Assembly: GCF_000718775.1 (NCBI RefSeq)
Contig: NZ_JOCB01000044.1
Coordinates: 11,531 to 75,530 of the forward strand
Source: Streptomyces sp. NRRL S-31
GTDB lineage: Bacteria; Actinomycetota; Actinomycetes; Streptomycetales; Streptomycetaceae
Length of the DNA stretch: 64,000 nt
Reading direction: 5' to 3'
Below are positions 16,968 through 50,932 of this stretch, one piece after another. A program made the position numbers and the translations under genes. Position 1 is the first letter of the stretch. Each line of letters begins with the position of its first letter. The notes beneath the pieces are model-generated. The model did no database searches. It was not told the origin of the DNA and worked only from the letters and a program-made list of their open reading frames with translations.

Positions 16968-17040
16968 CCGGGGGCCCCGCACCAGAGTGTCTCGCCGCAC
17001 ATACCCCCCACCGTGCTGTCACCGATCGTGCCGGAGCCTC

Positions 17041-20000
17041 ATGACCTCGCCTGTGCGTGCCCATGACCTGATCCTGTGCCTCACCCCCTTCGGAGAACCC
17101 GACGCCGGCCTGGCCGCCGCCGCCTCAGCCGCCGGCGCGCTCGGCGTCCTGGACCTGGGCACGGGTGACCGAAGATCCCGTGACCAGCTCTCCCGCCTGA
17201 GCCGGGCCGCCCCGGGCCCCTTCGGCATACGGGTGACCGGGCGCTGTGCCCTCACCCCCGCGGACCTCGGCGACGCCGTGGACACCGTGCTCCTCACCTC
17301 GGACAGCACCTGGAACGCCGACCGGCTCCCGGACGCATGCCGGGTGTTGGTGGAGGTGCATGACCTCGGGCAGGCTCGGGCGGCCGTCCGTGCCGGTGCG
17401 CGGGGGCTGGTCGCCCGGGGAGCCGAGAGCGGTGGCCGGGTCGGCGACCTGACCACCTTCGTCCTGCTGCAACAACTGCTGTCCGACGAGGAGTTGGTCG
17501 ACGTCCCGGTGTGGGCCTGCGGGGGCATCGGGCCCCGTACGGCGGCGGCCGCCGTCGCGGGCGGCGCGGCCGGTGTCGTCCTGGACAGCCAACTGGCCCT
17601 GCTGGCCGAGTCGGAGCTGCCCGAGGAGACCCGGGCGGTGCTGCGCTCCCTGGACGGCTCGGAGACCGTGGTGGTCGGCGGGCACCGGGTGCTGCGGCGA
17701 CGCGGCCCGGACGCCCCCCGGCCGCCCGCCGACACCCCCGAAGCGGTCGCGCCCCTGCTGGGCGCCCGCGCACCACGCGGCCGGCTGCTCCCGGTGGGGC
17801 AGGACGGCTTCCTCGCCGCCCGCTTCGCCGAGCGGTGGCGGGACGTGCGGGGGGTGGTGCGCGGCCTGACGGCGGCGATACGGGAGGTCTCCGGGGCGGC
17901 GGCCGCACCGAGGCCGCCCATGCCGACGACCGCGCCCCCCGCGGTGCCGGTGTCCTCGCCGTCCGAGGCGTCCGTGCGGCCTGTGGTGCCGGTGTCCTCG
18001 TCGTCCGAGGCGTCCGTGCGGCCTGTGGTGCCGGTGTCCTCGCCGTCCGTGGAGGCGTCCGCGCGGTCCGTGGTGCCGAGTGCTGTGGACACGGCCGTCC
18101 TTCCCGCGGAGGCGGAGGCGATACCGTCCGCCGGTACCGGCCCTTGGCCCGTGGCCGCCGTGTCCGGTGCTGACGCCCTGCGGCCCGGGTCGGTGATGAG
18201 CCGTGCGCTGGGCACCCGGCTGCCGGTCGCGCAGGGGCCGATGACGCGGGTCAGCGACCAGGCCGGATTCGCCGCCGCGGTGGCCGAGGACGGGGCGCTG
18301 CCCTTCCTCGCGCTGGCCCTGGCCGACGGGGAACGGGCCCGGGCGATGCTCACCGAGGCGCGTGCCGTGCTGGACGGCCGGGCCTGGGGCGTGGGCGTGC
18401 TCGGCTTCGCGCCCGAGGACGTCAGGAACGCCCAGCTGGACGCCGTACGGGAACTGCGGCCCACGCACGCGATCGTCGCAGGCGGCCGGCCCGCCCAGGC
18501 CCAGGCGCTGGAGCGGGCCGGCATCCGCACCTTCCTGCACGTGCCCTCGCCGGGGCTGCTGCGCCAGTTCCTGGACGCCGGTGTGCGCCGATTCGTGTTC
18601 GAGGGCTCCGAGTGCGGCGGGCACGTCGGGCCCCGGGCCTCCTTCCCGCTCTGGGAGGCACAGCTCGCCGTCCTGGAGGACTTCCTGGCGGACTTCCCGG
18701 CGGACGCCGCCGCGCGTGGCACGGCCGACGGCGCGACCGGCCCCGGCGACGGCGGTGAGGCGCCCCCGCTGGAGGTGTTCTTCGCGGGCGGCATCCACGA
18801 CGAGCGGTCCGCGGCGATGGTCGCCGCCCTGGCCGCACCGCTCACCGCCCGGGGCGCCGCCGTCGGCGTTCTCATGGGCACCGCCTACCTGTTCACCGAG
18901 GAGGCGGTCGCCCGCGGTGCCGTCCGGCCGCTGTTCCAGCGGCAGGTCCTGGCCGCCACCGGGACCGCCCTGCTGGAGACCGCGCCCGGCCATGCCACCC
19001 GCTGTGTGCCCAGCCCTTTCACCCGCGACTACCGCGAGCGGGAGGCCGGGTTGCGTACGGCGGGCCTGCCGGACCGGCAGGTCTGGGAGCGGCTGGAGCG
19101 GCTCAACGTCGGCCGGCTGCGCATCGCCAGCAAGGGCGTGACACGCGCCGAGGGCGGTGAGTTACGGGCCGTCGACGAGGAACGTCAGCTCGGCGAGGGC
19201 CTGTTCATGGCGGGCCAGGTCGCCGTCCTGCGCTCGGCGCCCACCACCGTGGCGGCCCTGCACCACGCGGTGACCGACGGCGCCGCCGACTTCCTGGCCG
19301 CACGCGCCGCGGGGCCCGCCGCCCGCGGGACGGCGCCGAGCCCCCGCGCCGCCGCACACCCGTCCCCGCCCCCGCCTCCGCCGCTCGACATCGCGATCGT
19401 CGGCATGGCGTGCATGTTCCCGCAGGCACCCGACCTCGCCGCCTTCTGGGCGAACATCGTCGCCGGGCGCGACTCCGTCACCGAGGTCCCGCCCGAACGC
19501 TGGGACCCCGCCGTGCACCACGACACCGGCATGACCACGTCGAAATGGGGCGGTTTCCTGCCCGAGATCCCCTTCGACCCGCTGCGCTACGGCATCCCGC
19601 CCGCCTCACTCGGCAGCATCGACCCCGCCCAGCTGCTGTCCCTGGAGGCGGCCCGCAGAGCGCTGGACGACGCCGGGTACGGCGAGCGGGGCCGGTGGTT
19701 CGACCGCTCCCGCACCTCCGTCGTCTTCGGCGCCGAGGCGGGCAGCGACCTGTCCGGCGCGCTCACCCTGCGCACCGTCCTGCCGTCGTACTACGGCGCG
19801 GTCCCCGACGGTCTCGACCAGCAGTTGCCCCGGCTCACCGAGGACTCCTTCCCCGGGATGCTGGCCAACGTCATCTCCGGGCGGATCGCCAACCGCCTGG
19901 ACCTCGGCGGCGCCAACTACACGGTGGACGCCGCCTGCGCCTCCTCCCTCGCCGCGCTGGACGTGGCCTGCAAGGAACTGGTCTGCGGCACCAGCGACAC

Positions 20001-23000
20001 CGTGCTGTGCGGCGGTGCCGACCTGCACAACGGCATCAACGACTACGTCCTGTTCTCCGCCGTGCACGCTCTCTCCCCGACCGGCCGGTCCCGCGCCTTC
20101 GACTCCTCCGCCGACGGCATCGCCCTCGGCGAGGGCGTGGCCTGCCTGGTCCTCAAGCGGCTCGCGGACGCCGAGCGCGACGGCGACCGGATCTACGGCG
20201 TGGTCAAGGGTCTCGGCTCCGCCAGCGACGGCCGCTCCCTCGGCCTGACCGCGCCCCGCCCCGAAGGACAGCGGGCCGCGCTGGAACGGGCGTACCGCAA
20301 CGCCGGGGTGCCGCCGGCCGCGGTCGGTCTGCTGGAGGCGCACGGCACCGGGACCGTCGTCGGCGACCGCACCGAACTCGACGTACTGGGCGAGGTGTTC
20401 GCCGAGGCCGGCGCGGAGACCGGCGGCTGTGCGCTCGGCTCGGTGAAGTCGCAGATCGGGCACACCAAGTGCGCCGCCGGGCTGGCCGGGCTGATCAAGG
20501 CGACGCTGGCGCTGTACACCGGGGTCAAACCGCCCACCCTGCACGTGGAACGGCCCAACCCGGCCTGGACGGCGGGGGAGAGCCCGTTCGCCTTCCACAC
20601 CCGGGCCCGGCCCTGGGCCGTACCGGCCGCCGAACGGGTGGCCGGAGTCAGCGCGTTCGGCTTCGGCGGCACCAATTTCCACGCGGTGCTCGCGGCGTAC
20701 GGTGACGCACCACCGCCCCGGCAGGCCCTGGACGCCTGGCCCGCCGAACTGTTCCTCTTCCGGGGCCGGGACCTGGCGGCCGCCCGCCGGACCGCCGGGG
20801 AACTGCTGCGGGCCGCCGAGTCCGACGGCAGCCCCTGGCGGCTGCGCGACCTCGCCCTGGCGGCGGCCCACCGCGCCGACACCTCGCACGACCCGGTCCA
20901 GGCGGCCGTCGTCGCCCACGACACGGAGGAGCTGATCACCCGGCTCCGGCACGTCCTTGCCGCGGACCCCGCCCCGGCCGCCGGCGTCCACCTCGCCGCC
21001 CCGGCCGGTGGGGGCGACTTTCCGCGCACGGACCCGGGCAAGGTCGCCTTCCTCTTCCCGGGGCAGGGCAGCCAGCGCACCGGCATGCTCGGCGAGCTGC
21101 TGGTGACGCTGCCCGAACTGCGGCACTACCTGCACCTCGGCCGGGCCCACGCCGACCGTCTCTTCCCGCCGGCCGCCTTCGACGACGCCACCGACGAGCG
21201 CCACCGGGCCGCCCTCACCGACACCCGGACGGCACAGCCCGCCCTCGGCATCACGGGCCTGGCCGCCCACGCCTTCCTCACCTCCGCCGGTGTCCACCCC
21301 GACCTGGCCGCCGGGCACAGCTACGGCGAACTCGTCGCCCTCGCCGCGGCCGGCGCCCTCGATCCGGAGACCCTGCTGGAGCTGAGCGCCGAGCGGGCCG
21401 GCGCGATCCTCGCCGCGGCCGGGGACGAGCCCGGCACCATGGCGGCCGTCGGCGCCCCCGCCGAGACCGTCGTACGCGCCCTGCGCACGGCCGGGGCACC
21501 GGAGTCGGTCGTCGTCGCCAACCTCAACTCACCCGAGCAGACGGTGGTCTCCGGACCCACCGCCGATGTCGACACCGCCGTCAAGGCCCTGCGCTCGGCC
21601 GGACTCGGCGCCCGCCGCATCCCGGTGGCCTGCGCCTTCCACAGCCCGCTGGTGGCGGCGGCGGGCGACCGGTTCGCCGAGGTGCTGGCGGACAAGCCGG
21701 TCCGGGCGCCCGAGTTCCCCGTCTGGGCCAACCGCACCGCCACGCCGTACCCGGCCGACCCCGGCGCCGTACGCGCCGGACTCGCCGCCCAGATCGGCGC
21801 CCCGGTGGCGTTCGCCGCGCAGATCGAGGCGATGTACGAGGACGGGGCCCGGATCTTCGTCGAGGCGGGCCCGGGGAAGGTCCTCACCCGCCTCGTCGGC
21901 CAGATCCTCGGCGACCGGCCGCACCGCACCATCGCCTGCGAGCCACGGCCCGACAGCGGTCTGGACGGCTGGCTGGACGCGCTCGCCCGGCTCGCCACGG
22001 CCGGTCAGCCGGTGCGCACCACCTGGCTCTTCCACGGCCGTGACGCCGTCGACGCGCTGCGCACCCCGGCACCCGAGCGGCCCGGCTGGACGGTCGACGG
22101 ACACCTCGTCCGCACGGCCGCCGGAGCCCTCCTGCCCGGTGCCCTCGCGCCGGCCCGACGCGTAGTGGAGACGACTGTGACGACCGCCCAGCCGAACGGC
22201 TCCCCGGCCGACCGGGACGCGTTGATCTCCGAATTCCTGCGCACCAGCCGGGAGATGATCGCCGCCCAGCGGGACGTGCTGCTCACCTACTTCGGCGCCC
22301 CGGCGGACGCGCCCACGCCCGTGTCCCCCCTCGCACCGCCGGTCCCCATGGCACCGCCGGCACCTCTCGCACCGCCGGCGCCTCTCGCGTCGCCGGCTTC
22401 CCCCGCGTCCGCCGTTCCGGCACCGGCCGGGCCGGCCGACGAGCCCGTGCCCGGCCCGGCCGCCGCCTCGGCCGACGACGTGGAGCGGGTGGTACGCGAG
22501 ATCATCAGCGAACGCACCGGCTACCCCGTCGACATGATCGAGCCCGGCCTGGACCTGGAGGCCGACCTGAGCATCGACTCGATCAAGCGCGCCGAGATCG
22601 CCGGTGAACTCGCCCGGCGGCTGGGCATCGCGGGCGGAGCGGAGCTGCTGGCCGACGCCGAGCTGGAGGAGCTGGCCAAGGCGCGCACCGCCGCGGCGGT
22701 CACGACTTGGCTGACGGCACGCCTGGGCGCGGCCGGGGGAGCCTCCGGCCATGCGGCGCGGAACGACGGCACACCGGCACCGGCAGCGGCAGCGGCACCG
22801 GCACGGGCACCGGAAACGGTCCCCGCCGCACCGGCCACGGCTATCGCGATTACCGGTACGCCGACTACCGGTACGCCGACTACCGGTACGCCGATTACCG
22901 GTACGCCGGCTTCCGGTACGTCCGCCCCCGCCGCGCCGCTCCCCGGCACCCCGGCCCCCGCCGCAGCGGACGTCCCCCTCGGCATCGCTCCCCGGCGCTG

Positions 23001-24522
23001 CGAGCTACGGCCCGTTCCGCTGCCCGATCCCGACCCGGACCTCGCCTCCGAACTGGCCGGCAGACGGTTCGTCGTCCTGGGGGACGGCCACGCCGGTGAG
23101 GACGGCGAGGGCGACACCCCCGCCGACGACCAGGGGCACCGCCCCGGCGGCGCGGCAGCCGAGGTCGCGGCACGGCTCGCCCGGTACGGCGCCGACACCG
23201 TACTCCTCGCCCACGACCACCTCCTCACCCCGGCCGACCTCCCCGCGGCGCCGGTCGACGGCGTCCTCTACCTCGGCGCGCTCCCCGGCCCCGACCTCCC
23301 GGTGCTGCCGGACGCGTTCCCGGTGCTGCGGGCGGCGCTGGCCCACGGCCCCCGGCTGCTGCTCGCCGTGCGCGCCGCCGACGGCGCCGGGGCGCTGCGG
23401 GCGGCGGGCCTGGACGGTCTGGTGCGCAGCGTCGGCCGCGAGTACCCGGATCTCTCCGCCCGCGTGCTGGCGGTGACCGACACCGGCCCGGCGGCCGTCG
23501 CCGACGCGGTCCTCGCCGAGCTGTGCGCTCCGCGACCCGCTCCCGTGGTCCTGCGCACGGCGACCGGACACCGGCACGGCCTGGAACTGGTGTCCGCGCC
23601 CCTCGGCCCGCTCGGCACCACCGGAGCCGGACCCGCCGGGGACGGCGCCGCCGAGGCCGCCGCCCTCGGACTCGACCGGGACTCCGTGGTGCTGCTGGTC
23701 GGCGGGGCCCGGGGCATCACGGCGAGGTTCGCGGCCACGCTGGCCGCCGCCTCCCGGTGCCGGATCGAGCTGCTGGGCCGCACCCCCGCGCCCACCGCGC
23801 CCGAGCCCCCGCACATCGCCGCCGCCCGCACTCCCGTGGAACTGCGGGCCGCGCTCGCCGCCGGGCCCGGCGCCCCGCGGCCCGCCGAGGTCAACCGGGC
23901 CGCCGGACTCGTCCTCGCCCAGCGGGAGATCACCACCACGCTCGCCGAACTCGCCGCCCTCGGCAGCCCGGCCCGCTACCGCTCGGTCGACTTCCGGGAA
24001 CGGGACACCGTCCTGCGGGCCGTCAAGGAGATCCACGCCGAACACGGCCGGCTCGACGGCGTGGTCTTCGCCGCCGGGGTGATCGAGGACCGGCTGATCG
24101 CCGAGAAGACCCCCGACTCCTTCCGGCGGGTCTACGGCACGAAGACCGCCGGGGCCGCCGCGCTGTTCGCCGCCCTGGACGAGCTGCCCGCCGCACCGGA
24201 GTTCACCGTGCTGTTCGGCAGCATCGCCGCCGTCCTCGGCAACCGGGGCCAGGCCGACTACGCCGCCGCGAACGACGCGCTGGAGGTGCTCGGCGCGGAC
24301 CGGGCCGCCCGCACCGGCCGGCGCACGCTCACCGTGCACTGGGGTCCCTGGGCCCCGGCCGGCGGCCACACCGGGATGGTCGGCCCGGAACTGGGCCGCG
24401 AGTACGCCCGGCGCGGGGTCGCGCTGATCGACCCGGAGGAGGGCACCGCGGCCCTGCTCCGCGAGCTGGCCTGGGGCGACCCGGCGGCCCGCGCCGTCGT
24501 CTACACCGCGTCGGGCTGGTGA
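17041..24522 (+). CDS. Iterative PKS / PUFA-synthase-like protein: NPD-NPD-KS-AT-ACP-KR
   Basis: A 2493-residue megasynthase. Domains in order: flavin NPD-type barrel 1 (about 5-285), Ser/Pro/Val repeat linker, NPD barrel 2 (about 380-755, PfaD-like enoyl reductase), ketosynthase (781-1224, Cys966, His1101, His1141), acyltransferase (1335-1640, GHSYGE with Ser1427), one ACP (about 1805-1890, LSIDSIKRAEI with Ser1847) and ketoreductase (about 1990-2490, Tyr2407). The DSIK-type ACP and the KR are of the PUFA/enediyne kind, not modular PKS. In barrel 1 the GGH motif is GGR (Arg133); barrel 2 keeps His528, so barrel 2 is probably the active reductase. There is one ACP rather than a tandem array. 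The ATG follows GGAG at 17033-17036. A TTA codon occurs at 19162. The next gene starts 1 bp after the stop. Product unknown. Confidence 0.93.
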   Translation: MTSPVRAHDLILCLTPFGEPDAGLAAAASAAGALGVLDLGTGDRRSRDQLSRLSRAAPGPFGIRVTGRCALTPADLGDAVDTVLLTSDSTWNADRLPDACRVLVEVHDLGQARAAVRAGARGLVARGAESGGRVGDLTTFVLLQQLLSDEELVDVPVWACGGIGPRTAAAAVAGGAAGVVLDSQLALLAESELPEETRAVLRSLDGSETVVVGGHRVLRRRGPDAPRPPADTPEAVAPLLGARAPRGRLLPVGQDGFLAARFAERWRDVRGVVRGLTAAIREVSGAAAAPRPPMPTTAPPAVPVSSPSEASVRPVVPVSSSSEASVRPVVPVSSPSVEASARSVVPSAVDTAVLPAEAEAIPSAGTGPWPVAAVSGADALRPGSVMSRALGTRLPVAQGPMTRVSDQAGFAAAVAEDGALPFLALALADGERARAMLTEARAVLDGRAWGVGVLGFAPEDVRNAQLDAVRELRPTHAIVAGGRPAQAQALERAGIRTFLHVPSPGLLRQFLDAGVRRFVFEGSECGGHVGPRASFPLWEAQLAVLEDFLADFPADAAARGTADGATGPGDGGEAPPLEVFFAGGIHDERSAAMVAALAAPLTARGAAVGVLMGTAYLFTEEAVARGAVRPLFQRQVLAATGTALLETAPGHATRCVPSPFTRDYREREAGLRTAGLPDRQVWERLERLNVGRLRIASKGVTRAEGGELRAVDEERQLGEGLFMAGQVAVLRSAPTTVAALHHAVTDGAADFLAARAAGPAARGTAPSPRAAAHPSPPPPPPLDIAIVGMACMFPQAPDLAAFWANIVAGRDSVTEVPPERWDPAVHHDTGMTTSKWGGFLPEIPFDPLRYGIPPASLGSIDPAQLLSLEAARRALDDAGYGERGRWFDRSRTSVVFGAEAGSDLSGALTLRTVLPSYYGAVPDGLDQQLPRLTEDSFPGMLANVISGRIANRLDLGGANYTVDAACASSLAALDVACKELVCGTSDTVLCGGADLHNGINDYVLFSAVHALSPTGRSRAFDSSADGIALGEGVACLVLKRLADAERDGDRIYGVVKGLGSASDGRSLGLTAPRPEGQRAALERAYRNAGVPPAAVGLLEAHGTGTVVGDRTELDVLGEVFAEAGAETGGCALGSVKSQIGHTKCAAGLAGLIKATLALYTGVKPPTLHVERPNPAWTAGESPFAFHTRARPWAVPAAERVAGVSAFGFGGTNFHAVLAAYGDAPPPRQALDAWPAELFLFRGRDLAAARRTAGELLRAAESDGSPWRLRDLALAAAHRADTSHDPVQAAVVAHDTEELITRLRHVLAADPAPAAGVHLAAPAGGGDFPRTDPGKVAFLFPGQGSQRTGMLGELLVTLPELRHYLHLGRAHADRLFPPAAFDDATDERHRAALTDTRTAQPALGITGLAAHAFLTSAGVHPDLAAGHSYGELVALAAAGALDPETLLELSAERAGAILAAAGDEPGTMAAVGAPAETVVRALRTAGAPESVVVANLNSPEQTVVSGPTADVDTAVKALRSAGLGARRIPVACAFHSPLVAAAGDRFAEVLADKPVRAPEFPVWANRTATPYPADPGAVRAGLAAQIGAPVAFAAQIEAMYEDGARIFVEAGPGKVLTRLVGQILGDRPHRTIACEPRPDSGLDGWLDALARLATAGQPVRTTWLFHGRDAVDALRTPAPERPGWTVDGHLVRTAAGALLPGALAPARRVVETTVTTAQPNGSPADRDALISEFLRTSREMIAAQRDVLLTYFGAPADAPTPVSPLAPPVPMAPPAPLAPPAPLASPASPASAVPAPAGPADEPVPGPAAASADDVERVVREIISERTGYPVDMIEPGLDLEADLSIDSIKRAEIAGELARRLGIAGGAELLADAELEELAKARTAAAVTTWLTARLGAAGGASGHAARNDGTPAPAAAAAPARAPETVPAAPATAIAITGTPTTGTPTTGTPITGTPASGTSAPAAPLPGTPAPAAADVPLGIAPRRCELRPVPLPDPDPDLASELAGRRFVVLGDGHAGEDGEGDTPADDQGHRPGGAAAEVAARLARYGADTVLLAHDHLLTPADLPAAPVDGVLYLGALPGPDLPVLPDAFPVLRAALAHGPRLLLAVRAADGAGALRAAGLDGLVRSVGREYPDLSARVLAVTDTGPAAVADAVLAELCAPRPAPVVLRTATGHRHGLELVSAPLGPLGTTGAGPAGDGAAEAAALGLDRDSVVLLVGGARGITARFAATLAAASRCRIELLGRTPAPTAPEPPHIAAARTPVELRAALAAGPGAPRPAEVNRAAGLVLAQREITTTLAELAALGSPARYRSVDFRERDTVLRAVKEIHAEHGRLDGVVFAAGVIEDRLIAEKTPDSFRRVYGTKTAGAAALFAALDELPAAPEFTVLFGSIAAVLGNRGQADYAAANDALEVLGADRAARTGRRTLTVHWGPWAPAGGHTGMVGPELGREYARRGVALIDPEEGTAALLRELAWGDPAARAVVYTASGW
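17944..18072 (+). repeat. Three in-frame 42-45-bp tandem repeats in the NPD1-NPD2 linker
   Basis: Units start at 17944, 17986 and 18028 and encode VPVSSPSEASVRPV-like 14-15-residue repeats. The first two differ by one base; the third has a 3-bp insertion and several changes. Confidence 0.95.
19162..19164 (+). promoter_or_regulatory. TTA leucine codon in the PKS gene
   Basis: In-frame TTA (Leu708, in GGELRAVDE near the end of NPD2). TTA is read in Streptomyces only by the bldA tRNA, which is limiting until development begins. One such codon can make the whole coupled operon bldA-dependent. I noticed no other TTA in the locus genes. Confidence 0.85.
22852..22920 (+). repeat. 15-bp in-frame tandem repeats after the ACP
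   Basis: Four full copies plus a partial copy of ACCGGTACGCCGACT encode TGTPT repeats in the linker between the ACP and the KR half of the first PKS protein. Confidence 0.95.
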
Positions 24523-24523
24523 C

Positions 24524-27500
24524 ATGACGGAGCCTCAGACGCCGGTCGCCATCGTCGGAATGGCGGTGCTGCTGCCCGGTGCCCGCGGACTGGACGCCTA
24601 CTGGGCCAACCTGCGGGACGGCACCGACGCCATCGGTGACGTCCCCGCCCACCGCTGGGACGCCGACTACTACCGTCCCGGCTCGGCCGCCGGGCCCGCC
24701 GTCGCCGGCCAGGTGTACTGCCGGCGCGGCGGGTTCGTGGACGGCCTGGCCGAGGTGGAGGTCACCCGGCACGGCATCATGCCCGCCGCCGTGGCCGGCA
24801 CCGAACCCGACCAGCTGATCGCCCTCGACGTGGCCGCGACCGCGCTCGCCGACGCCGGCGGTCCGGAGCGGCTGCCCGAACGGCACCGGGTCGGGGTCGT
24901 CCTCGGCCGGGGCGGCTATCTCACCCCCGGCCTGGCCCGGCTGGACCAGCGGGTGCGCACCGCACACCAACTCACCCGCACCCTGGGCGAGTTGCTGCCC
25001 GACCTGGCACCCGCCCAGCTCGACCGGGTCCGCGCGGCGTTCACCGAACGGCTCGGCCCGGACAGCCCCGACGCCGCGATCGGCCTGGTCCCCAACCTCG
25101 CCGCCTCCCGCATCGCCAACCGCCTCGATCTGCGCGGCCCCGCCTACACCGTGGACGCGGCCTGCGCCTCCTCCCTGGTCGCCGTCGACCACGCGGTCAC
25201 CGCGCTCACCACCGGCCGCTCGGACCTGATGCTGGCCGGGGGAGTGCACCACTGCCACGACATCACGCTGTGGAGCGTCTTCTCCCAGCTCCGCGCGCTG
25301 TCCCCGACGGAGCGCATCCGCCCCTTCCACCGCGACGCCGACGGCCTCCTCATCGGCGAGGGCACCGGAGTCGTCGTACTGAAACGGCTCGCGGACGCCG
25401 CACGCGACGGTGACCGCGTCTACGCGGTGATCCGCGGCACCGGCGTGGCCGCCGACGGCCGTACGGCGGGACTCGTCGCCCCCGATCCGGGCGGCCAGGG
25501 CCGGGCCGTGCGCCAGGCCTGGCAGGCCGCCGGGCTCGACCCCGCCGCACCGGACTCGGTCGGCCTGCTGGAGGCCCACGGGACGGCCACGCCCGCCGGT
25601 GACACCGCCGAACTCCGCACACTGGCCGAGGTGTTCGGGCCCGGGGCGAGCGGCCTCCGGGACGAGGGGCGGCCGGTGCTGGGCTCGGTGAAGTCGATGA
25701 TCGGCCACACCATGCCGGCGGCGGGCGTGGCGGGCCTGGTCAAGGCCGCGCTCGCCCTGCACCACCGCACCCTCCTGCCCACGCTGCACTGCGACGACCC
25801 GCACCCCGCCCTCGCCGCCACCCGCTTTTGCACCCTGGACCGGGCCCGGCCCTGGGAGACGGGCACCGGACAGCCGGTCCGGCGGGCCGGGGTGAACGCG
25901 TTCGGGTTCGGCGGGATCAACGCGCACGTGGTGCTGGAGGAGTCACCGGCCGGCCGCCCCGCCCAGGCACCATGGAGGGTTTCCGCACCCGTTGCTGCAC
26001 CCCTGATCGAGTCGCCCGCCACATCCGTCACCGAGTCGTCCGCCGCACCCGTCACCGAGTCGCCCGCCGCATCCGTCACCGAGTCGTCCACCGAGCCATC
26101 CGCCGCGTCGTCCGCCCTGTCGTCCGCCGTGCCGGGTGGTGCGCCGCGCGGGGTGCCACCGGCCCGGCCGCGTGTCATCGAACCCGAGCGGGTCCTGCTG
26201 CTCGCCGCCGGGGACGTGGCCGGGCTCGCCGTCCTCCTCGACCGCGACGACCCGGCCGTGCTCGCCGCCGGGCTCGACCCGGCCCTCCCGCGCACCGGGG
26301 ACGGCCCGGTCCGGCTCGGGATCGTGGACCCGACGGCCAAGCGGCTCGCCCTGGCCCGTCGCACGGTCGCCAAGGGCCGTGCCTGGCACGGGCGCGGTGA
26401 CATGTGGTTCCGGCCGACCCCCCTGCTCGGCCCGGCCGGCGGCCGGCTCGCGTTCGTCTTCCCCGGGCTGGAGGCGGAGTTCACGGCCCGTACCGACGAC
26501 ATCGCCGCCCACTTCGGCCTGCCCCCGGTCGCTGGCACGGAGGTCCGGGTGGGCGACATCGGCCGGCACGGCTTCGGCGTCGTCGGGGTGGGCCGCCTGC
26601 TGGACCAGGCCCTGCGCCGCATGGGCGTGGTACCGGACGCGGTCGCCGGACACAGCGTCGGAGAGTGGACGGCCATGGCCGCCGCCGGACTGTACTCCGC
26701 CGCCCAGGTGGACGCGTTCATGACCGGCTTCGACCCGGACTCGATCACCGTCCCCGGCCTCGCCTTCGCCGCCGTCGGCACCTCCGCCGCCCAGGTCCGC
26801 GCCGCGCTCGCCGCCGCCTGGGCGGGTTCCGGGATCGTGCTCTCCCACGACAACGCGCCCCGCCAGGCCATGGTCTGCGGCCCCGGCCCGGTGGTGGAGG
26901 AGTTCGCGCGGTCCCTGCGCGCCGAGGGCGTGCTCTGCCAGGTGCTGCCCTTCCGGTCAGGCTTCCACACGCCGATGCTGGAACCGTATCTCGGCCCCAT
27001 CAAGGCGTCCGCCGACCGTTTCCGGCTGCACCCGCCGACCGTTCCGGTGTGGTCGGGAACGACCGCGGCACCCTTCCCGGCGGACGAGCCCGCGGTCCGG
27101 GAACTCTTCGTCCGGCATCTGCTGGAGCCCGTCCGCTTCCGCGAGCTGACCGAGGCCATGTACGCCGCCGGGCACCGCGTCTTCGTCCAGACCGGCCCCG
27201 GCCGGCTGACCTCGCTCATCGGCGACACCCTCGGCGAACGCGATCACCTGGCCGTCGCCGCCCACTCGGCCCACCATGACGGGCTGGCCCAGCTCCGGCG
27301 CACGGCGACCGCGCTGTGGACGGCGGGGGCGGTCGTGGCACCGGCGGTTCCGGCCCGGACCCCGGCCCGGACCGAGGCCGGCACCACGGCGGGAACCCCG
27401 GCCGGCCGTCCGGCCGTGGTACGCCCGCCCGTCCGCCTCGACCTGGGCAGCGCCCTGGTGTCACTGGACGGCCCGTCCCGCGAGGCGCTGCGCGCGCAAC

Positions 27501-29515
27501 TGCGCGGGACGCCGCCGGAAGAACGGCCGGGCGAACCACCGACCACACGGTCGGCCACACCGCCGGACGCCTCACCGCCGACGGCCGGATTCCCCCTTCG
27601 GCCCGGTACGCCGGCCGGCCCTTCCGCCACCACCGTCCCCGCGCTCGAACACCTCGCGCGGCACCACCCGGCCGCCGCCGAACTCACCGCCCTCCTGCGG
27701 GACACCGCGCACACGGCGGCGGAACTGATCGCGGCGAGCCGCCCCCCGGGCACCGGAAGCCCCACGCCCCCAGGCACCCACGCCCCCGCCCCCCTCACCT
27801 CCGCCCCTCCCACGGTTCACCCCACCACCACGACCCTCCACGTCTCCGCGCGGACCATGCCCCACCTCCTGGACCACTGCTTCTTCCCGCAGCGTCCGGG
27901 CTGGCCGGACCTGGCCGACCGCTGGCCGGTCGTCCCCGCCACCACGATCGTGCGGCACATGATGGACGCGGCGGAGGCGGCGGCCCCCGGCCTGCGCGCC
28001 GTCGCCGTGCACGGGGCCCGCTTCGACCGGTGGCTCACCGCGACGCCCCCCGTCGAGGTACCGGTCACCGTCACCCCGGCCCCCGACCACCCGCACCGGG
28101 TCACCGTCGCCTTCGGCACGACGGCCCGCGCCGAGATCGAACTCGCCCCGCACCACTGCGCGCCATCCCCGCCGATCCCCTTCCCGGGCGCCCCGGAACA
28201 CCTCCCCGCGCACACCGCGGCCCAGCTCTACCGCGAGCGCTGGATGTTCCACGGCCCGCGGTTCCAGGGCCTGACCGAGCTGACCGCGATCGGCGAGCGG
28301 CACATCCGCGGAGTGATCACCACCCCCGCCGCCCCCGGTGCCCTGCTCGACAACGTCGGCCAGCTGCTGGGCTACTGGATCATGGCGACCCGCTCCGAGC
28401 GGACCGTCGTCTTCCCGGTGCGGCTGGGCACGGCGCGGTTCCACGGACCGGACCCGGCCCCCGGCACCGAGGTGCGCTGCCTGCTGCGGATCACCTCGCT
28501 CACCGACACCCTGCTGGAGGCGGACGCGGAACTGACCGTCGACGGCCGGGTGTGGGCCCGGCTCACCGGCTGGCAGGACCGCCGGTTCGACAACGACCCC
28601 ACCACCCGGCCCGTCGAACGCTTCCCCGAGCGCCACACCCTCTCCACCGCCATGCCCGGCGGCTGGGCCCTGGTGCACGAGCGGTGGCCGGACCTCGCCT
28701 CACGCGACCTGATCATGCGGAACTCGCTGGGCGGCGCCGAGCGCGCCGCGTACGCGCGACGCCCGCCGCGCGGACGCCGGCAGTGGCTGCTCGGCCGTAT
28801 CGCGGTCAAGGACGCGGTACGGCACTGGCTCTGGCAGCAGGGAGAAGGGCCCGTCTTCCCGGCGGAGATCCAGGTCGGCAACGACGAACTCGGCCGGCCC
28901 CGCGTCACCGGAGTGCACGGCCGCGCCCTGCCTCCGCTGGACGTCTCGCTCGCCCACCGAGCCGAGACGGGCGTGGCGATCGTACGGCCGCACCGCCCGT
29001 CGCCCGGTCCCGGCATCGACGTCGAAGAGGTCACCGAGCGCGACCCGGCCACCCTCGCCACCGCGCTCGGTCCCGTGGAACTGCGGTTGCTGCGCGCCCG
29101 GTGCGCGGACGGCGGTGAGACGCCGGCCCTGTGGTTCACCCGGTTCTGGGCCGCCAAGGAGGCGGTCGCCAAGGCCGAGGGCGCCGGATTCGGCGGCCGT
29201 CCCCGGGACTTCACCGTGTTGGAGGCCGCCCCGGACGGCAGCCGGCTGCTGGTCTCCGGCCGGCTGGAGCGCGCCTACACCGTGCACTGCGCGCCGGCCG
29301 CCAACCCGCCCGGCCTGCCGGAACGCGACTACGTGGTGGCCTGGACGACCGGCCCGGGGACCGGCGACGGACGACACGGCGGCGCGGCCGAGGACGGACT
29401 GCACCGCCCCGCGCCCGCCGACGGACGGCACGGCGCCGCAGCCGCCGACGGACCGCCCGGCATCGCACCCGAGGACCGACGACACGACACCGCAGCCGAG
29501 GAGTACCTCCGATGA
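24524..29515 (+). CDS. Second PKS protein: KS-AT-DH-PPTase
   Basis: 1663 residues. KS (1-470) keeps the full Cys214, His352, His395 triad, so it is not a chain-length-factor-type dead KS. AT (about 645-930) has GHSVGE with Ser711 but lacks the usual GQGSQ entry motif (FPGLEAEF). A dehydratase of the polyketide type lies at about 1100-1370 (LLDHCFFP with His1118; second half LLDNVGQLLGYWIM). A fused 4'-phosphopantetheinyl transferase lies at about 1410-1600 (GIDVEEV with Asp1499; FWAAKEAVAK with Lys1545 and Glu1546). The C-terminal tail is a degenerate DGRHG-type repeat. It starts 1 bp after the first PKS and overlaps the ACP gene by ATGA. It should supply dehydration, a second condensing/loading step and self-activation of both ACPs. 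The PPTase fusion recalls enediyne synthases, but the architecture differs. Confidence 0.93.
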   Translation: MTEPQTPVAIVGMAVLLPGARGLDAYWANLRDGTDAIGDVPAHRWDADYYRPGSAAGPAVAGQVYCRRGGFVDGLAEVEVTRHGIMPAAVAGTEPDQLIALDVAATALADAGGPERLPERHRVGVVLGRGGYLTPGLARLDQRVRTAHQLTRTLGELLPDLAPAQLDRVRAAFTERLGPDSPDAAIGLVPNLAASRIANRLDLRGPAYTVDAACASSLVAVDHAVTALTTGRSDLMLAGGVHHCHDITLWSVFSQLRALSPTERIRPFHRDADGLLIGEGTGVVVLKRLADAARDGDRVYAVIRGTGVAADGRTAGLVAPDPGGQGRAVRQAWQAAGLDPAAPDSVGLLEAHGTATPAGDTAELRTLAEVFGPGASGLRDEGRPVLGSVKSMIGHTMPAAGVAGLVKAALALHHRTLLPTLHCDDPHPALAATRFCTLDRARPWETGTGQPVRRAGVNAFGFGGINAHVVLEESPAGRPAQAPWRVSAPVAAPLIESPATSVTESSAAPVTESPAASVTESSTEPSAASSALSSAVPGGAPRGVPPARPRVIEPERVLLLAAGDVAGLAVLLDRDDPAVLAAGLDPALPRTGDGPVRLGIVDPTAKRLALARRTVAKGRAWHGRGDMWFRPTPLLGPAGGRLAFVFPGLEAEFTARTDDIAAHFGLPPVAGTEVRVGDIGRHGFGVVGVGRLLDQALRRMGVVPDAVAGHSVGEWTAMAAAGLYSAAQVDAFMTGFDPDSITVPGLAFAAVGTSAAQVRAALAAAWAGSGIVLSHDNAPRQAMVCGPGPVVEEFARSLRAEGVLCQVLPFRSGFHTPMLEPYLGPIKASADRFRLHPPTVPVWSGTTAAPFPADEPAVRELFVRHLLEPVRFRELTEAMYAAGHRVFVQTGPGRLTSLIGDTLGERDHLAVAAHSAHHDGLAQLRRTATALWTAGAVVAPAVPARTPARTEAGTTAGTPAGRPAVVRPPVRLDLGSALVSLDGPSREALRAQLRGTPPEERPGEPPTTRSATPPDASPPTAGFPLRPGTPAGPSATTVPALEHLARHHPAAAELTALLRDTAHTAAELIAASRPPGTGSPTPPGTHAPAPLTSAPPTVHPTTTTLHVSARTMPHLLDHCFFPQRPGWPDLADRWPVVPATTIVRHMMDAAEAAAPGLRAVAVHGARFDRWLTATPPVEVPVTVTPAPDHPHRVTVAFGTTARAEIELAPHHCAPSPPIPFPGAPEHLPAHTAAQLYRERWMFHGPRFQGLTELTAIGERHIRGVITTPAAPGALLDNVGQLLGYWIMATRSERTVVFPVRLGTARFHGPDPAPGTEVRCLLRITSLTDTLLEADAELTVDGRVWARLTGWQDRRFDNDPTTRPVERFPERHTLSTAMPGGWALVHERWPDLASRDLIMRNSLGGAERAAYARRPPRGRRQWLLGRIAVKDAVRHWLWQQGEGPVFPAEIQVGNDELGRPRVTGVHGRALPPLDVSLAHRAETGVAIVRPHRPSPGPGIDVEEVTERDPATLATALGPVELRLLRARCADGGETPALWFTRFWAAKEAVAKAEGAGFGGRPRDFTVLEAAPDGSRLLVSGRLERAYTVHCAPAANPPGLPERDYVVAWTTGPGTGDGRHGGAAEDGLHRPAPADGRHGAAAADGPPGIAPEDRRHDTAAEEYLR
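26009..26092 (+). repeat. 24-bp in-frame tandem repeats in the KS-AT linker
   Basis: Three copies (26009, 26033, 26057) plus half a copy encode ESPATSVT-like octapeptides at about residue 496 of the second PKS protein. Confidence 0.93.
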
Positions 29516-29838
29516 ATCCCACCCAGCCGGCCCCGGCCCCCGCGCCGCCCACCGCCGAGACCGTGCTCGCCGACATCTCCGGCATGCTCCGCACGGTGCT
29601 GGCGGAGTACGGCGAGGACGACGTGGCGATCGGCATGTCCACGCTTTTCAACCGCGACCTGGAACTGGAGAGCATCGACCTCGTCACCCTGGCGGGCCTG
29701 CTGGAGGAACGGTACGGACAGCGGGTCAACCTCGCCGAGTTCCTGGCCGGTATGGAGTTCGACGAGATCATCGAGCTGACCGTCGGCCGGCTCGTGGAGC
29801 ACGTGGTGCGGAGCCTGAAGACCGGCCGGGCGGGCTGA
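29512..29838 (+). CDS. Discrete acyl carrier protein
   Basis: A 108-residue free-standing carrier protein. The phosphopantetheine site is LELESIDLVTL (Ser54), with ESI in place of the common DSL, followed by an ordinary helix III. A Pro/Ala-rich stretch of about 14 residues leads the domain. The start codon overlaps the stop of the PKS gene (ATGA). It may load the starter, shuttle the chain between the two megasynthase proteins, or carry the chain to the hydrolase. The fused PPTase upstream is the obvious activating enzyme. Confidence 0.93.
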   Translation: MNPTQPAPAPAPPTAETVLADISGMLRTVLAEYGEDDVAIGMSTLFNRDLELESIDLVTLAGLLEERYGQRVNLAEFLAGMEFDEIIELTVGRLVEHVVRSLKTGRAG

Positions 29839-29841
29839 GCC

Positions 29842-30654
29842 ATGGCGATGGTCGACGCCGGCGGCATCCGGCTGCACGTCCAGCGGACCGGCCCCACCGA
29901 CGGCCGCGCCCCGCACGCCACCATCGTCCTGGTGCACGGGCTGCTCACCGACAGTCTGGCCAGCTACTACTTCACCGTCGCCCCCCGGTTCGCGGCGGCC
30001 GGACTCGACGTCGTCATGTACGACCTGCGCGGCCATGGCCGCAGCGAGCGCCCGCCGCGCGGCTACACCCTCGACCACAACATCGACGACCTGACGGCGC
30101 TCCTCGACCGGCTCGGCGTGACCGGTCCCGTGCACCTCGTCGGCAACTCCTACGGCGGCACCATCGCCTTCGGGTACGCGGCCCGCCATCCCGGCCGGGT
30201 GGCCGGCCTGACCCTGATCGAGTCCGAACCGGCGACCGCCGCCTGGGCGGCGAAGCTCGGCCGCATCCTGCACCGGGTGACGACCCAACTCGCCCACAAC
30301 GAACCGGACGCCCTCGCCTGGATCACGGCCCACCGGGGCCACAACACCGCCCGCCTCGCCAAGGGCGCGGCACGGCTCGCCCGCGAGACCACCCTGGGCC
30401 GGGACATCCCCGCCAGCCGGGTGCTCACCGAGGCCCAGATCGGCGCCGTACGCTGCCCGGTCCTCGGTGTGTACGGCGGCGACTCCGATCTGGCGGACCT
30501 GGTGCCGGCGCAGCGGCGGCTGCTGCCGGACTACCGGGCGGTCGTGCTGCCGGGGCACGAGCACTCGGTCCTGGTCGAGGCACCCGGCACGGTCGGCGGA
30601 CACATCCTGGACCACACCCTGGACCGGGTCCGCGCGGGGACGGGCGTCCGGTGA
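29842..30654 (+). CDS. Alpha/beta hydrolase, candidate chain-release thioesterase
   Basis: 270 residues with a complete hydrolase triad pattern: nucleophile elbow GNSYGG (Ser103), GGDSDLAD for the acid, and PGHEHSVLVEAP for the histidine. The oxyanion HG motif is VHGLLTD. It starts 3 bp after the ACP stop, so it is part of the operon. Neither megasynthase protein has a thioesterase domain, so this is the best candidate to free the chain as an acid or ester. An ester hydrolase or editing role is the alternative. Confidence 0.85.
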   Translation: MAMVDAGGIRLHVQRTGPTDGRAPHATIVLVHGLLTDSLASYYFTVAPRFAAAGLDVVMYDLRGHGRSERPPRGYTLDHNIDDLTALLDRLGVTGPVHLVGNSYGGTIAFGYAARHPGRVAGLTLIESEPATAAWAAKLGRILHRVTTQLAHNEPDALAWITAHRGHNTARLAKGAARLARETTLGRDIPASRVLTEAQIGAVRCPVLGVYGGDSDLADLVPAQRRLLPDYRAVVLPGHEHSVLVEAPGTVGGHILDHTLDRVRAGTGVR

Positions 30655-31829
30655 GCGGATTCCTCTTCGTCGTCCCGCCGCTGACCGGGCACGTCAACCC
30701 CGCCGTGGGCGTCGCCGCCCGGCTCGCCGCGCAGGGGCACCGAGTGGCCTGGGCGTGCGCCGATCCGGCGCTGGTGCGGCGGCTCGCGGGTGCCGACGCC
30801 GTGGTGTTCGGGTGCGCCGGTCCGGTGCCGGGCGCCCCGGGTGCCGTACGGCCGCCGGAGCTGCGGGGCGCGGAGGCGCTGCGGTTCCTGTGGGAGTGGT
30901 ACCTGCTGCCGCTGGCCGACGCGATGGCGCCGGGGGTGCGCGCGGCCGTCGCGGCGTTCCGCCCGGACGTGGTCGTCGCCGACCAGCAGGCGTTCGCCGG
31001 CGCCCTGGTGGCCGAGCACCTGGGGTTGCCCTGGGCCACCTCCGCGACCACGTCGGCCGAGTTCAGCGGTGCCTACGACGGTCTGCCCAAGGTCGCCGAC
31101 TGGCTCGGGCGGCGCCTGGCCGAGCTGCGCGCGCGCATCGGGGACCCGGCGGGCACCGCCGACCCGCGTTCCTCGCCCCACCTCCTGCTCGTGTTCAGCA
31201 CACCGGAACTGATCGGGCCGCGGGCGCCGGCGGCACCGCACGTCCACTACGCCGGCCCCTCGCTCACCGGCCGCCCGGCCGGGCCGGACTTCCCCTGGGA
31301 CCGGCTGGACCCCGGCCGAGCCAAGGTCCTGGTGACCCTCGGCACGGCCAACGCCGACGCCGGGACCCGGTTCCTCGGCGAGGCCCGGACCGCGCTGCGA
31401 GCCCGCGCCGACCGGCTCCAGGCGGTGATCGCCGATCCGGCCGGCACCCTGACCGCGGCACCGGACGATGACGTCCTGGTCGTGCCGTCCGTTCCCCAGC
31501 TCCCGCTGCTGGCGCACATGGACGCCGTGGTCTGCCACGCGGGCCACAACACGGTGTGCGAGGCGCTGTGGCACGGCGTCCCGATCGTCGCCGCGCCGAT
31601 CAGGGACGACCAGCCGGTGGTGGCGGCGCAGGTCGTGGACTCCGGCGCGGGCGTCCGGGTCCGGTTCGGCCGGGTCACCGCGGCCCGGCTGGGCGAGGCC
31701 CTCGACACCGTCCTGCGCGACCCGGCCCACCGGCACGCCGCCGCCCGCGTCCGCGACGCGTTCCGCGCGGCGGGCGGCGCCCGGTCGGCGGCGGCCCGCC
31801 TCGCCCGGCTGGCGGCGGAGGGCCGATGA
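30651..31829 (+). CDS. GT1-family glycosyltransferase (MGT/UGT-like)
   Basis: A 392-residue GT-B enzyme. The N-terminal acceptor domain starts FLFVVPPLTGHVNPAVGVAARLA. The C-terminal nucleotide-sugar domain has VLVTLGTANAD and the signature HAGHNTVCEALWHGVPIVAAP, followed by DQPVVAAQVVDSGAGVRV. Relatives glycosylate macrolides, aglycones and carotenoid-like lipids with NDP-sugars. The GTG start overlaps the hydrolase stop (GTGA). No NDP-sugar biosynthesis genes lie in the window, so it probably uses a common sugar such as UDP-glucose or GlcNAc. Confidence 0.92.
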   Translation: MSGFLFVVPPLTGHVNPAVGVAARLAAQGHRVAWACADPALVRRLAGADAVVFGCAGPVPGAPGAVRPPELRGAEALRFLWEWYLLPLADAMAPGVRAAVAAFRPDVVVADQQAFAGALVAEHLGLPWATSATTSAEFSGAYDGLPKVADWLGRRLAELRARIGDPAGTADPRSSPHLLLVFSTPELIGPRAPAAPHVHYAGPSLTGRPAGPDFPWDRLDPGRAKVLVTLGTANADAGTRFLGEARTALRARADRLQAVIADPAGTLTAAPDDDVLVVPSVPQLPLLAHMDAVVCHAGHNTVCEALWHGVPIVAAPIRDDQPVVAAQVVDSGAGVRVRFGRVTAARLGEALDTVLRDPAHRHAAARVRDAFRAAGGARSAAARLARLAAEGR

Positions 31830-31960
31830 CCGACACGCGCGACGAACAGCCCGGTCACCCGCGAGCCCGGTCGCGCCGGGGCACCGCGGGCAGGTCACGG
31901 AAGCCAGGACAGGAAGCCGCAGCGGACGTCCGCGGCGAGGAAGGGGCGGGGAGCCGATGA
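31826..31960 (+). CDS. 44-codon ORF bridging glycosyltransferase and methyltransferase
   Basis: The ATG overlaps the glycosyltransferase stop (ATGA) and its own TGA overlaps the methyltransferase ATG (ATGA). Ribosomes could therefore pass through it by termination-reinitiation. The peptide is charged, Arg/Gly/Glu-rich and probably disordered, with no known motif. It could be a small functional peptide, a coupling leader, or a remnant of the glycosyltransferase tail after a frameshift. Coding status is uncertain. Confidence 0.4.
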   Translation: MTDTRDEQPGHPRARSRRGTAGRSRKPGQEAAADVRGEEGAGSR

Positions 31961-33270
31961 GTGACGCACGTGAGACGCGGGGAGCGGATACGGAGCCGAC
32001 GAGCACCCCGACCGACGAGACGACGGGACCGGTGAGCGACGCGGCGGACCGGACGGCGGGGCGGGTGAGCGGCATGGCGGACCGGGCGGCCGGACCGCTG
32101 AGTGACGCGGTGAGCGAACCGACCGGGCGGGTGCGTGACGTGCGTGAGAAAACAGTGCGTGACGCGCGTGAGAAGGCAGTGCCGGACGCGCGCGAGAAGA
32201 CGGCGCGGGATGCGCGAATGAAGACGGCGCGGGTCGCCGCCCTGCGCTCCGCCTACCGGGCCGACCTGGACGCTGGCACCGACCGCTTCTTCGCGGCCCG
32301 GCGGACCACCTGCCCCTGGTGTTCCTCCGGCCGGATCGGCCCCCGCCTGCGCACCACCGACCTGCTCCAGCACAAGCCCGGCCGCTTCCTCCTCGACCGC
32401 TGCGCCGACTGCGGCCACATCTTCCAGAACCCCCGGCTGACCACCGAGGGGCTGGAGTTCTACTACCGCGACTTCTACGACGGGCTCGGCGAGCAGCGGA
32501 TGAGCGGCACCTTCGGCGGGCGCGGCGCGATGTACCGGGGCCGTGCCGAGGCCATGCTGCCCCACGACCCCGCGCCGAAGACCTGGCTGGACGTCGGCAC
32601 CGGCCACGGCCACTTCTGCGCCGCCGCCCGCACCGTACTCCCCGGCACCGCCTTCGACGGGCTCGACTTCACCGACGGCGTCGAACTCGCCGCCCGCGAG
32701 GGCCGCGTGGACCACGCCTACCGCGGTGCCTTCCCCGACCTGGCACCCGAACTGGCCGCCCGCTACGACGTGGTGAGCATGTTCCACTACCTGGAGCACA
32801 GCACCGACCCCGACCGCGAACTCCGCGCCGCCCACCGCGCCGTACGCCCCGGCGGGCACCTTTTGATCGAGGTACCGGACCCGGAGAGCCGCTACGCCCG
32901 GCTGCTCGGCCGCTGGTGGCTGCCCTGGCTCCAGCCGCAGCACCTGCACTTCGTGCCGGTGGCCAACCTGCGCCACCGGCTCACCGGGCTCGGGTTCACG
33001 GTGGTCGCGGAAGAGCACGCCGAGGCCCATGACCCGGTGGACCTGCTCGCCGCGGTCTGGCTGGCGCTCGACCACACCGCCCCGCGCGAGGACGCGCCCT
33101 GGCTCCCCGAACGCCCCGGCGCCCTCCGCCGCGCCGCGCGCGCCGCGCTCCTGCTGGCGGGCGTCCCCGCGCTGATCACCGCCACGCTCCTCGACCGCTT
33201 CGCCGTACGCCCGTTCTCCCACCGGCTCGGCCTGTCCAACGCCTACCGCCTGGTGGCCCGACGGGACTGA
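31957..33270 (+). CDS. Zinc-ribbon class I SAM methyltransferase
   Basis: 437 residues. The first 95 are low-complexity (VSDAADRTAGRVSGMADRAAG, then four REKTVRDA-like octads) and probably form a helix or coiled coil. A metal-binding ribbon follows: TCPWCSSGRIG, then DRCADCGHIFQNPRLT. Next come the SAM motifs: TWLDVGTGHGHFCAAA (motif I), MFHYLEHSTDPDRELRAAHRAVRPGGHLLIEVPDPES (posts II-III). A hydrophobic stretch near residue 405 (LLLAGVPALITATLL) may contact membrane. Zn-ribbon methyltransferases of this type methylate sugars or small acceptors. Its place after the glycosyltransferase suggests a sugar or product O/C-methylation. It is the last gene of the coupled operon. Confidence 0.88.
   Translation: MSDARETRGADTEPTSTPTDETTGPVSDAADRTAGRVSGMADRAAGPLSDAVSEPTGRVRDVREKTVRDAREKAVPDAREKTARDARMKTARVAALRSAYRADLDAGTDRFFAARRTTCPWCSSGRIGPRLRTTDLLQHKPGRFLLDRCADCGHIFQNPRLTTEGLEFYYRDFYDGLGEQRMSGTFGGRGAMYRGRAEAMLPHDPAPKTWLDVGTGHGHFCAAARTVLPGTAFDGLDFTDGVELAAREGRVDHAYRGAFPDLAPELAARYDVVSMFHYLEHSTDPDRELRAAHRAVRPGGHLLIEVPDPESRYARLLGRWWLPWLQPQHLHFVPVANLRHRLTGLGFTVVAEEHAEAHDPVDLLAAVWLALDHTAPREDAPWLPERPGALRRAARAALLLAGVPALITATLLDRFAVRPFSHRLGLSNAYRLVARRD
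32143..32238 (+). repeat. Four 24-bp in-frame repeats in the methyltransferase N-terminus
   Basis: Units at 32143, 32167, 32191 and 32215 encode REKTVRDA, REKAVPDA, REKTARDA and RMKTARVA. They are diverged at DNA level but regular in length. Confidence 0.85.
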
Positions 33271-34345: not shown

Positions 34346-34603
34346 GGGGACGTCGTCCTTCCGCGGCGGACCCCTCGGCGGGGCCTTGAGGGAAGCGGGC
34401 CGGGCGAACCGCGTGGGAGCCTTCCCCTCCCGCGTGACACGGGGATGTCCGGAAACGTAAGGCGTGGGGGCGGGACGGTGCCGACCCGCGCGGACGGCCG
34501 AGCGGCCGTTCAGCGCCGACCAGGTAGCCTTCCCTCGGGACGCGTTTTACATGCGGTGACCCGTCAGCCGGAGAGCAAGGTCAGCTACAGGGGAGGAACC
34601 GGC

Positions 34604-35248: not shown

Positions 35249-35262
35249 GGCGCCCCGGCCGA

Positions 35263-35286
35263 GCGGCGGGCACCCGCCCCCGCCGC
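35263..35286. terminator. Bidirectional hairpin between dedA-type and carbonic-anhydrase-like genes
   Basis: GCGGCGGG (35263-35270) and CCCGCCGC (35279-35286) pair perfectly around an 8-nt loop in the 40-bp gap between two convergent genes. Confidence 0.5.
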
Positions 35287-35288
35287 GC

Positions 35289-35816: not shown

Positions 35817-35925
35817 CACCGTCTCCTCGTGTCGGCCGTACACGGCACGGTACGACACCGGGTGGGGCAAAGATCACAGCAGCCCGCCCTCTCCGCCGGA
35901 GGCGACCGCTGAGTAACGTGAGCCC

Positions 35926-49630: not shown

Positions 49631-49668
49631 CCGGCGGCTCAGTCCAGCCCCGGCGGCTCAGTCCAGCC
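49631..49668. repeat. 19-bp perfect tandem duplication spanning the P450 stop codon
   Basis: CCGGCGGCTCAGTCCAGCC occurs twice (49631-49649 and 49650-49668). The second copy holds the stop codon and last codons of the cytochrome P450 gene. Confidence 0.95.
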
Positions 49669-50896: not shown

Positions 50897-50932
50897 GGCG
50901 GGTCCTTGGGGAGCGTCGGGCCGGGGCGGCGG

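Follow-up and report, generated by a model that had tools for sequence, protein, structure and literature searches.

What kind of iterative synthase does the co-directional gene run at positions 17041-33270 (+) of our window encode, and what might it make? The window is the whole stretch of 64,000 nucleotides that was analysed, taken from Streptomyces sp. NRRL S-31 (assembly GCF_000718775.1, contig NZ_JOCB01000044.1, positions 11,531 to 75,530). The run comprises genes for two polyketide synthases (PKS1 and PKS2), a free acyl carrier protein (ACP), a hydrolase, a GT1 glycosyltransferase (GT), a 44-codon open reading frame (ORF) and a methyltransferase. An initial annotation had taken it for an iterative synthase of Pfa-like type that is accompanied by genes for glycosyl and methyl tailoring and differs from the canonical polyunsaturated fatty acid (PUFA) and enediyne synthases. 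Its list of domains and genes is present in full by Pfam, NCBIfam and hidden Markov models (HMMs) built from relatives, and the distinction is supported by domain content and by a ketosynthase (KS) tree. We read the run as probably an operon for an iterative, Pfa-like synthase of secondary lipids, Type M in layout; its predicted product is a chain with a glycosylated (elsewhere sulfated) hydroxyl that is often methylated. Confidence in the synthase class is good and confidence in the order of the late steps is low.

Pfam matches on PKS1 are NMO, the N- and C-terminal ketoacyl-synt families, Acyl_transf_1, PP-binding and KR, and the HMMs built from relatives resolve the order NPD1-NPD2-KS-AT-ACP-KR, in which NPD is a nitropropane dioxygenase-like domain, AT an acyltransferase and KR a ketoreductase. 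PKS2 is KS-AT-PS-DH-ACPS/PPTase by Pfam and domain HMMs, DH being a dehydratase and PPTase a phosphopantetheinyl transferase. Active sites were counted in 63 PKS1 and 81 PKS2 sequences, and the catalytic residues of KS1, AT1, ACP and KR are invariant in PKS1. The catalytic His of NPD1 is kept in 0 of the 63, and we predict that NPD1 is a dead enoyl reductase (ER) and NPD2 a live one. Structure models were built from 42 sequences each, and the NPD1-NPD2 packing in them is taken from a predicted template modelling score (pTM) of 0.85 alone. A parallel exists in the ERb/ERc heterodimer of the thraustochytrid PUFA synthase, for which the available part of PMC13311796 describes two TIM-barrel ERs per synthase, one needed for the stability and flavin mononucleotide (FMN) binding of the other; both of those ERs keep the catalytic His, whereas NPD1 has lost it and is fused in tandem with NPD2. 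That the NPD domains have other chemistry, with NPD2 acting as a FabX-like dehydrogenase/isomerase or a nitronate monooxygenase, is very unlikely, and FabX-like chemistry for NPD2 was rejected. KR, DH and an intact NPD2 are all present, so the chain may be reduced to any degree, and the polyene, suggested earlier as one option next to a partly reduced acyl chain, is not shown by the sequence.

The second acyltransferase, AT2, has lost the malonyl-binding Gln and Arg, and the 81 sequences have at these positions Gly (78/81) and Phe (74), Tyr (3), Ala (2) or Leu (2). The same pair is lost in PfaB, to which the available text of PMC12895367 assigns the role of terminal acyltransferase. Since AT2 keeps its Ser and His, we read it as a probably acyl-moving, PfaB-like domain. 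Among NCBIfam models, both PKSs score highest against TIGR02813 (PfaA), at 858 and 474 bits, which is below its cut-off of 1010. This top match, the DSIKR motif of the ACP and the tandem ACPs of some relatives would suit a true PUFA synthase for membranes, next to which the GT and methyltransferase are incidental. We consider that quite unlikely, given that Pfam finds neither a chain length factor (CLF) nor a FabA family among the matches of either PKS (domain HMMs find none either), as the initial annotation had said of FabA-like domains, and that KS1 and KS2 fall outside the PfaA-type and PfaC-type clades described below. The likeness to PfaA-PfaD is in the iterative KS-AT-ACP-KR set, the DSIKR ACP, the position of the KSs beside the PfaA and PfaC branches and the PfaB-like second AT; the window differs from these synthases in having no CLF, one dehydratase of PS-DH type, one ACP in place of the tandem ACPs, a FabK-like tandem ER and a clustered GT and methyltransferase. 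A single ACP is not a mark of the family: among the 94 PKS1 frames in which NPD2, KS and KR are all present, 80 have one ACP, but 14 have more (two in 12, three in 2).

The placement of the KSs was examined in a tree of 88 KSs, including 23 KS1 and 23 KS2 rows picked for spread. The references are tandem-ACP Pfa and other Pfa-like actinomycete clusters, a Persicobacter plasmid (five tandem ACPs and two KS-type domains in its second protein), modular PKSs of the same genome and five enediyne PKSs (PKSEs); the PfaA-type, PfaC-type and Type L labels on them are our own, from domain order. Next to three of the PKSEs the annotation names an enediyne biosynthesis protein, a CRTAC1 or ASPIC/UnbV protein and a thioesterase, and the others were recognised by an adjoining 4HBT-type thioesterase (locus L157 in our numbering) or by similarity (L171). 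KS1 forms a 100/100 clade that, together with a Beijerinckia relative (99/93), is sister to the PfaA-type KSs (100/96), and KS2 forms a 100/100 clade that is sister to the PfaC-type KSs (97/82). The PKSE KSs form a 100/100 clade of their own, grouped with the modular PKSs (100/96). KS1 and KS2 each thus lie outside the sampled PUFA-type and enediyne clades of this sequence tree, which is the outcome, for PfaA-type and enediyne references, of the KS phylogeny that the initial annotation had proposed as a check. A first quick tree had 98 rows and one PKSE; the second left out 14 rows, which came from 13 loci, and the clade tests were picked once the first tree was seen.

A split enediyne-like synthase that makes a fully conjugated polyene, later glycosylated, would explain why KS-AT-ACP-KR plus DH-PPTase gives the enediyne domain order over two chains, with DH and PPTase behind the KS-AT-(ACP-KR) parts, and approximately unbiased (AU) tests do not reject either KS as a partner of the PKSEs. 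We regard this as unlikely because the PKSE KSs stand in their separate clade, an intact ER is fused on, and the family DH model finds 0/5 PKSEs while the PPTase model finds 2/5, at 20 and 11 bits. In addition, the single chain of a PKSE is here two chains with an extra KS, an extra AT and two NPDs, and a scan of 10 window proteins around the operon finds no accessory gene of E3, E4, E5 or E10 type, in agreement with the initial annotation. Its term enediyne-like holds for the layout; the tree keeps the PKSE KSs apart, although the AU tests do not reject a grouping.

Several observations weigh against the Pfa-like Type M reading and temper it. Named Type M, HglE and marine PfaA sequences lie outside the tree references, the first quick tree set KS2 apart from the PfaC-type KSs, and each alternative tried survives the AU tests (KS1+PKSE, P = 0.10; KS2+PKSE, P = 0.19; KS1+KS2, P = 0.27; KS1+PfaA without Beijerinckia, P = 0.35). 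The His of the GHSxG motif is kept by AT2 in 79/81 sequences, unlike in bacterial PfaB, and the predicted fold of NPD2 is nearer FabK than PfaD. The two plasmids that delimit the cassette (below) have identical ACP and hydrolase accessions and so possibly record one event.

The gene set recurs well beyond this strain. Related loci are the best 80 of at least 577 confirmed PKS2-related genomic stretches, and the homologue list covers 120 of 7985. Matches in the 80 relatives number 80 for PKS1, 80 for PKS2, 75 for the ACP, 74 for the hydrolase, 71 for the GT and 55 for the methyltransferase. In a gene-order set of 83 loci (the 80 relatives, two plasmids and the window), 54 carry the complete six genes in a single order and on one strand; the methyltransferase is missing from that place in 17, the GT is missing as well in 4, a contig end leaves only PKS1-PKS2 in 5, and 3 are irregular. 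The presence of PKS1 and PKS2 in all relatives and the shared six-gene order indicate that the locus is not a chance assembly, and the search for the same gene order that had been proposed earlier recovered it. PKS1-PKS2-ACP-hydrolase-GT-methyltransferase are consecutive on two mobilizable linear Streptomyces plasmids, where an IS3 transposase follows after 0.3 and 0.9 kb; this arrangement suggests that the cassette ends at these six genes. The most specific part, NPD1, is matched at E ≤1e-30 in 38 of 101 Streptomyces genomes, including that of the window, and five more have only weaker matches, of 1e-11 to 1e-12, in frames that are 331-571 residues long; the genome of the window itself has one match at E ≤1e-10 and hence one copy. 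In the wider class, domain HMMs find the family at nine further loci from six group codes, of which one is a fragment and two do not have PKS2 in one frame; downstream, the four of these that were checked have the ACP and hydrolase (4), the GT (3) and the methyltransferase (0).

What follows the hydrolase points to the chemistry of the product. The downstream genes were viewed in 87 loci, namely the 83-locus set and the four wider-class loci (L161-L165 are outside this count). Five uncut loci have no GT, four of them in named actinomycetes of Micromonospora kind, and a sulfotransferase stands directly after the hydrolase in all five and in no other of the loci compared. The nine relatives without a GT match are five cut by a contig end and four with the sulfotransferase, and this near-constancy of a capping gene also speaks against the membrane PUFA synthase with an incidental GT. 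A swap between GT1 and sulfotransferase would fit a chain hydroxyl as the acceptor, in which case at least one KR product would escape dehydration. A glycosylated product of a Pfa-related synthase has a precedent in HglT of the heterocyte glycolipids (PMC11804610, in the part available), and the hgl islands likewise combine such a synthase with a glycosyltransferase that caps its product. According to the same text, the islands have a thioester reductase and an ABC exporter, whereas the window has probable release by the hydrolase and no linked exporter; Pfam finds no thioester reductase domain in either PKS. At one locus (L147) a second glycosyltransferase copy follows shortly after the first.

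Junctions from PKS1 to the GT lie between a 4-base overlap and a 3-base gap, whereas 127 bases, with the small ORF inside, separate the GT from the methyltransferase. In 43 of 51 loci with both genes, the start of the methyltransferase itself is a codon that overlaps the GT stop, and the 44-codon ORF was therefore rejected as a gene. The window is among the 8 exceptions: the first start in the methyltransferase frame lies 128 bases past the GT stop and is followed by a repetitive N-terminal stretch. From this comparison we take the ORF for a relic or a coupling ORF; the initial annotation had counted it in its coupled operon, but it is outside the conserved set. PKS1 has an alternative in-frame GTG start at 16987. 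No Rfam family at gathering score and no sigma-70 or terminator pattern were found in the region.

How much of this is already known? Type M clusters, with product unknown, are described in the available part of PMC3098273 for Frankia, Actinosynnema (A. mirum), Renibacterium salmoninarum and Streptomyces avermitilis, and that of PMC13291983 likens fused pfaDA and pfaBC-with-PPTase to the uncharacterised secondary lipid synthase cluster of R. salmoninarum. The shared features are a fused PfaD-PfaA protein, a PfaBC-type protein with PPTase and actinobacterial hosts. The window has a reductase fused to the PfaA part, though NPD2 is FabK-like in fold, and KS2-AT2-DH-PPTase corresponds to the PfaBC-type protein. 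The operon therefore fits the Type M layout, a filing by architecture and host range in which Type M is known to us by its published description. The earlier claim that the locus matches neither PUFA nor enediyne synthases is supported for both, and fails in so far as it implied no known type, this layout being already in print. In the portion of the published Type M text available, neither a dead NPD1 nor a PfaB-like AT2 nor tailoring genes appear. The synthase layout is already catalogued; the dead NPD1, the PfaB-like AT2, the cassette limits, the head-group swap, the prevalence and the possibility of tandem ACPs in relatives are new. Among the open-access papers that our searches listed, we recognised none with a product for this gene set. 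The part of PMC3848822 available has nothing on this cluster, and no open-access paper was found for the PDB entries nearest KS1 and KS2. Macrodiolide glycolipids (fattiviracin, cycloviracin, glucolipsin) were an idea only and were set aside, as no paper title on their gene clusters turned up.

Under the favoured reading of a Pfa-like secondary-lipid synthase, the PPTase domain of PKS2 would activate the ACPs and AT1 would load malonyl units. KS1 and KS2 would elongate the chain, with KR of PKS1 and DH of PKS2 processing the cycles, and NPD2 would reduce enoyl groups in some or all cycles, NPD1 being its catalytically inactive structural partner on the same polypeptide. AT2 may then pass the completed product chain on, possibly to the free ACP, and the alpha/beta hydrolase would release it. 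GT1 would add a sugar to a chain hydroxyl, a role the sulfotransferase may take in the five related loci that have it at that place, and in many strains the Zn-ribbon methyltransferase would methylate the product. The gene set, the order of domains, the active-site residues, the KS placement within its limits and the exchange of GT for sulfotransferase are observations (Table 1); how long the chain is and how far it is reduced, in which order the steps run, which sugar is attached, where the methyl group goes and every enzyme activity are what we infer from them.

Table 1 Genes and domains of the operon in window coordinates, with the evidence for each.
Feature	Position	Strand	Evidence
PKS1: NPD1-NPD2-KS1-AT1-ACP-KR	17041..24522	+	Pfam; domain HMMs of relatives; matched in 80/80 relatives
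NPD1: FabK-fold domain without catalytic His, predicted dead enoyl reductase	17056..17790	+	
NPD2: FabK-like enoyl reductase, His intact	18202..19350	+	
KS1, PfaA-side ketosynthase	19378..20760	+	Cys-His-His invariant in 63; tree
AT1, malonyl-type acyltransferase	21073..22020	+	Gln and Arg kept 63/63
PKS1 ACP domain, DSIKR motif	22483..22710	+	Ser 63/63
KR region	22993..24510	+	Ser, Tyr and Asn each 63/63; Pfam KR
PKS2: KS2-AT2-DH-PPTase	24524..29515	+	Pfam; domain HMMs; matched in 80/80 relatives
KS2, PfaC-side ketosynthase, no CLF behind it	24533..25963	+	Cys and both His 81/81; tree; no second KS before AT2
AT2, PfaB-like acyltransferase	26411..27343	+	malonyl-binding Gln and Arg lost 81/81; Ser and His kept 81/81
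Dehydratase, PS-DH type	27791..28693	+	Pfam PF14765; His and Asp 81/81
PPTase domain	28706..29338	+	Pfam PF01648; Asp 76/81, Lys-Glu 77/81
Free ACP	29512..29838	+	PP-binding; Ser 78/78 aligned
Alpha/beta hydrolase, probable releasing thioesterase	29842..30654	+	Abhydrolase; nucleophile Ser 71/77, Cys 6/77 aligned
GT1 glycosyltransferase, macrolide GT type	30651..31829	+	UDPGT, EryCIII-like_C; TIGR01426 below its cut-off; His of GH-NP motif 73/73 aligned
44-codon ORF, relic or coupling ORF	31826..31960	+	methyltransferase starts here instead in 43/51 loci
Zn-ribbon S-adenosylmethionine (SAM) methyltransferase	31957..33270	+	Methyltransf_23; four Cys each 58/58 aligned; matched in 55/80 relatives

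Downstream, at window 33305-36690, lie genes for a YbhN/MprF-like membrane protein, a DedA protein and two hexapeptide-repeat proteins. They were rejected as cassette members, being present in only 19-20 of 80 relatives and not annotated beside either plasmid cassette in the PLSDB gene table, which is incomplete. A cytochrome P450 gene adjoins a pyridine-nucleotide-disulphide (ferredoxin-reductase-type) gene at window 49658-52324. Also noticed were further Pfa-like layouts in Streptomyces and other actinomycetes, many of them single-ACP (L129, L130, L132-L134, L155, L156 and L166-L168), and enediyne-type PKS genes that are frequent on Streptomyces linear plasmids (L169, L170 and L172, among others); in 47 plasmid records, over all hosts, one place matches 80% or more of the L157 PKSE query. 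Loci L140-L144 were dropped as enediyne references after turning out to be other KS-AT proteins, the end of L141 being aminotransferase-like by reading only, without a family call. NPD-NPD-KS-AT-ACP-KR proteins are found on alphaproteobacterial plasmids as well (L153, L173 and L174: Beijerinckia pBIND02, Methylosinus pMSC49a and Rhodobacteraceae SC52), where the partner is a separate DH-PPTase or AT-DH-PPTase, and pBIND02 and pMSC49a carry, in addition, genes of KASIII type and for ABC/RND-adaptor export.

Tentatively, the operon may represent an unrecognised class of actinobacterial secondary lipids with a conserved aglycone and a head group that is a sugar in most lineages or a sulfate in the Micromonosporaceae type, with the dead NPD1 as an obligatory partner of NPD2 that may help to choose which cycles are reduced. 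From each of three features, namely the dead NPD1, the PfaB-like AT2 and the exchange of GT for sulfotransferase, a sharp prediction follows on the programming of Pfa-like synthases and the capping of their products, and the size of the cassette allows its transfer as a whole into a laboratory host. With the synthase in about a third of the sampled Streptomyces genomes, a lipid or glycolipid that is common among the best-studied antibiotic producers may have escaped notice, and the finding would gain weight should the product turn out to be a class of lipids widespread in actinobacteria.

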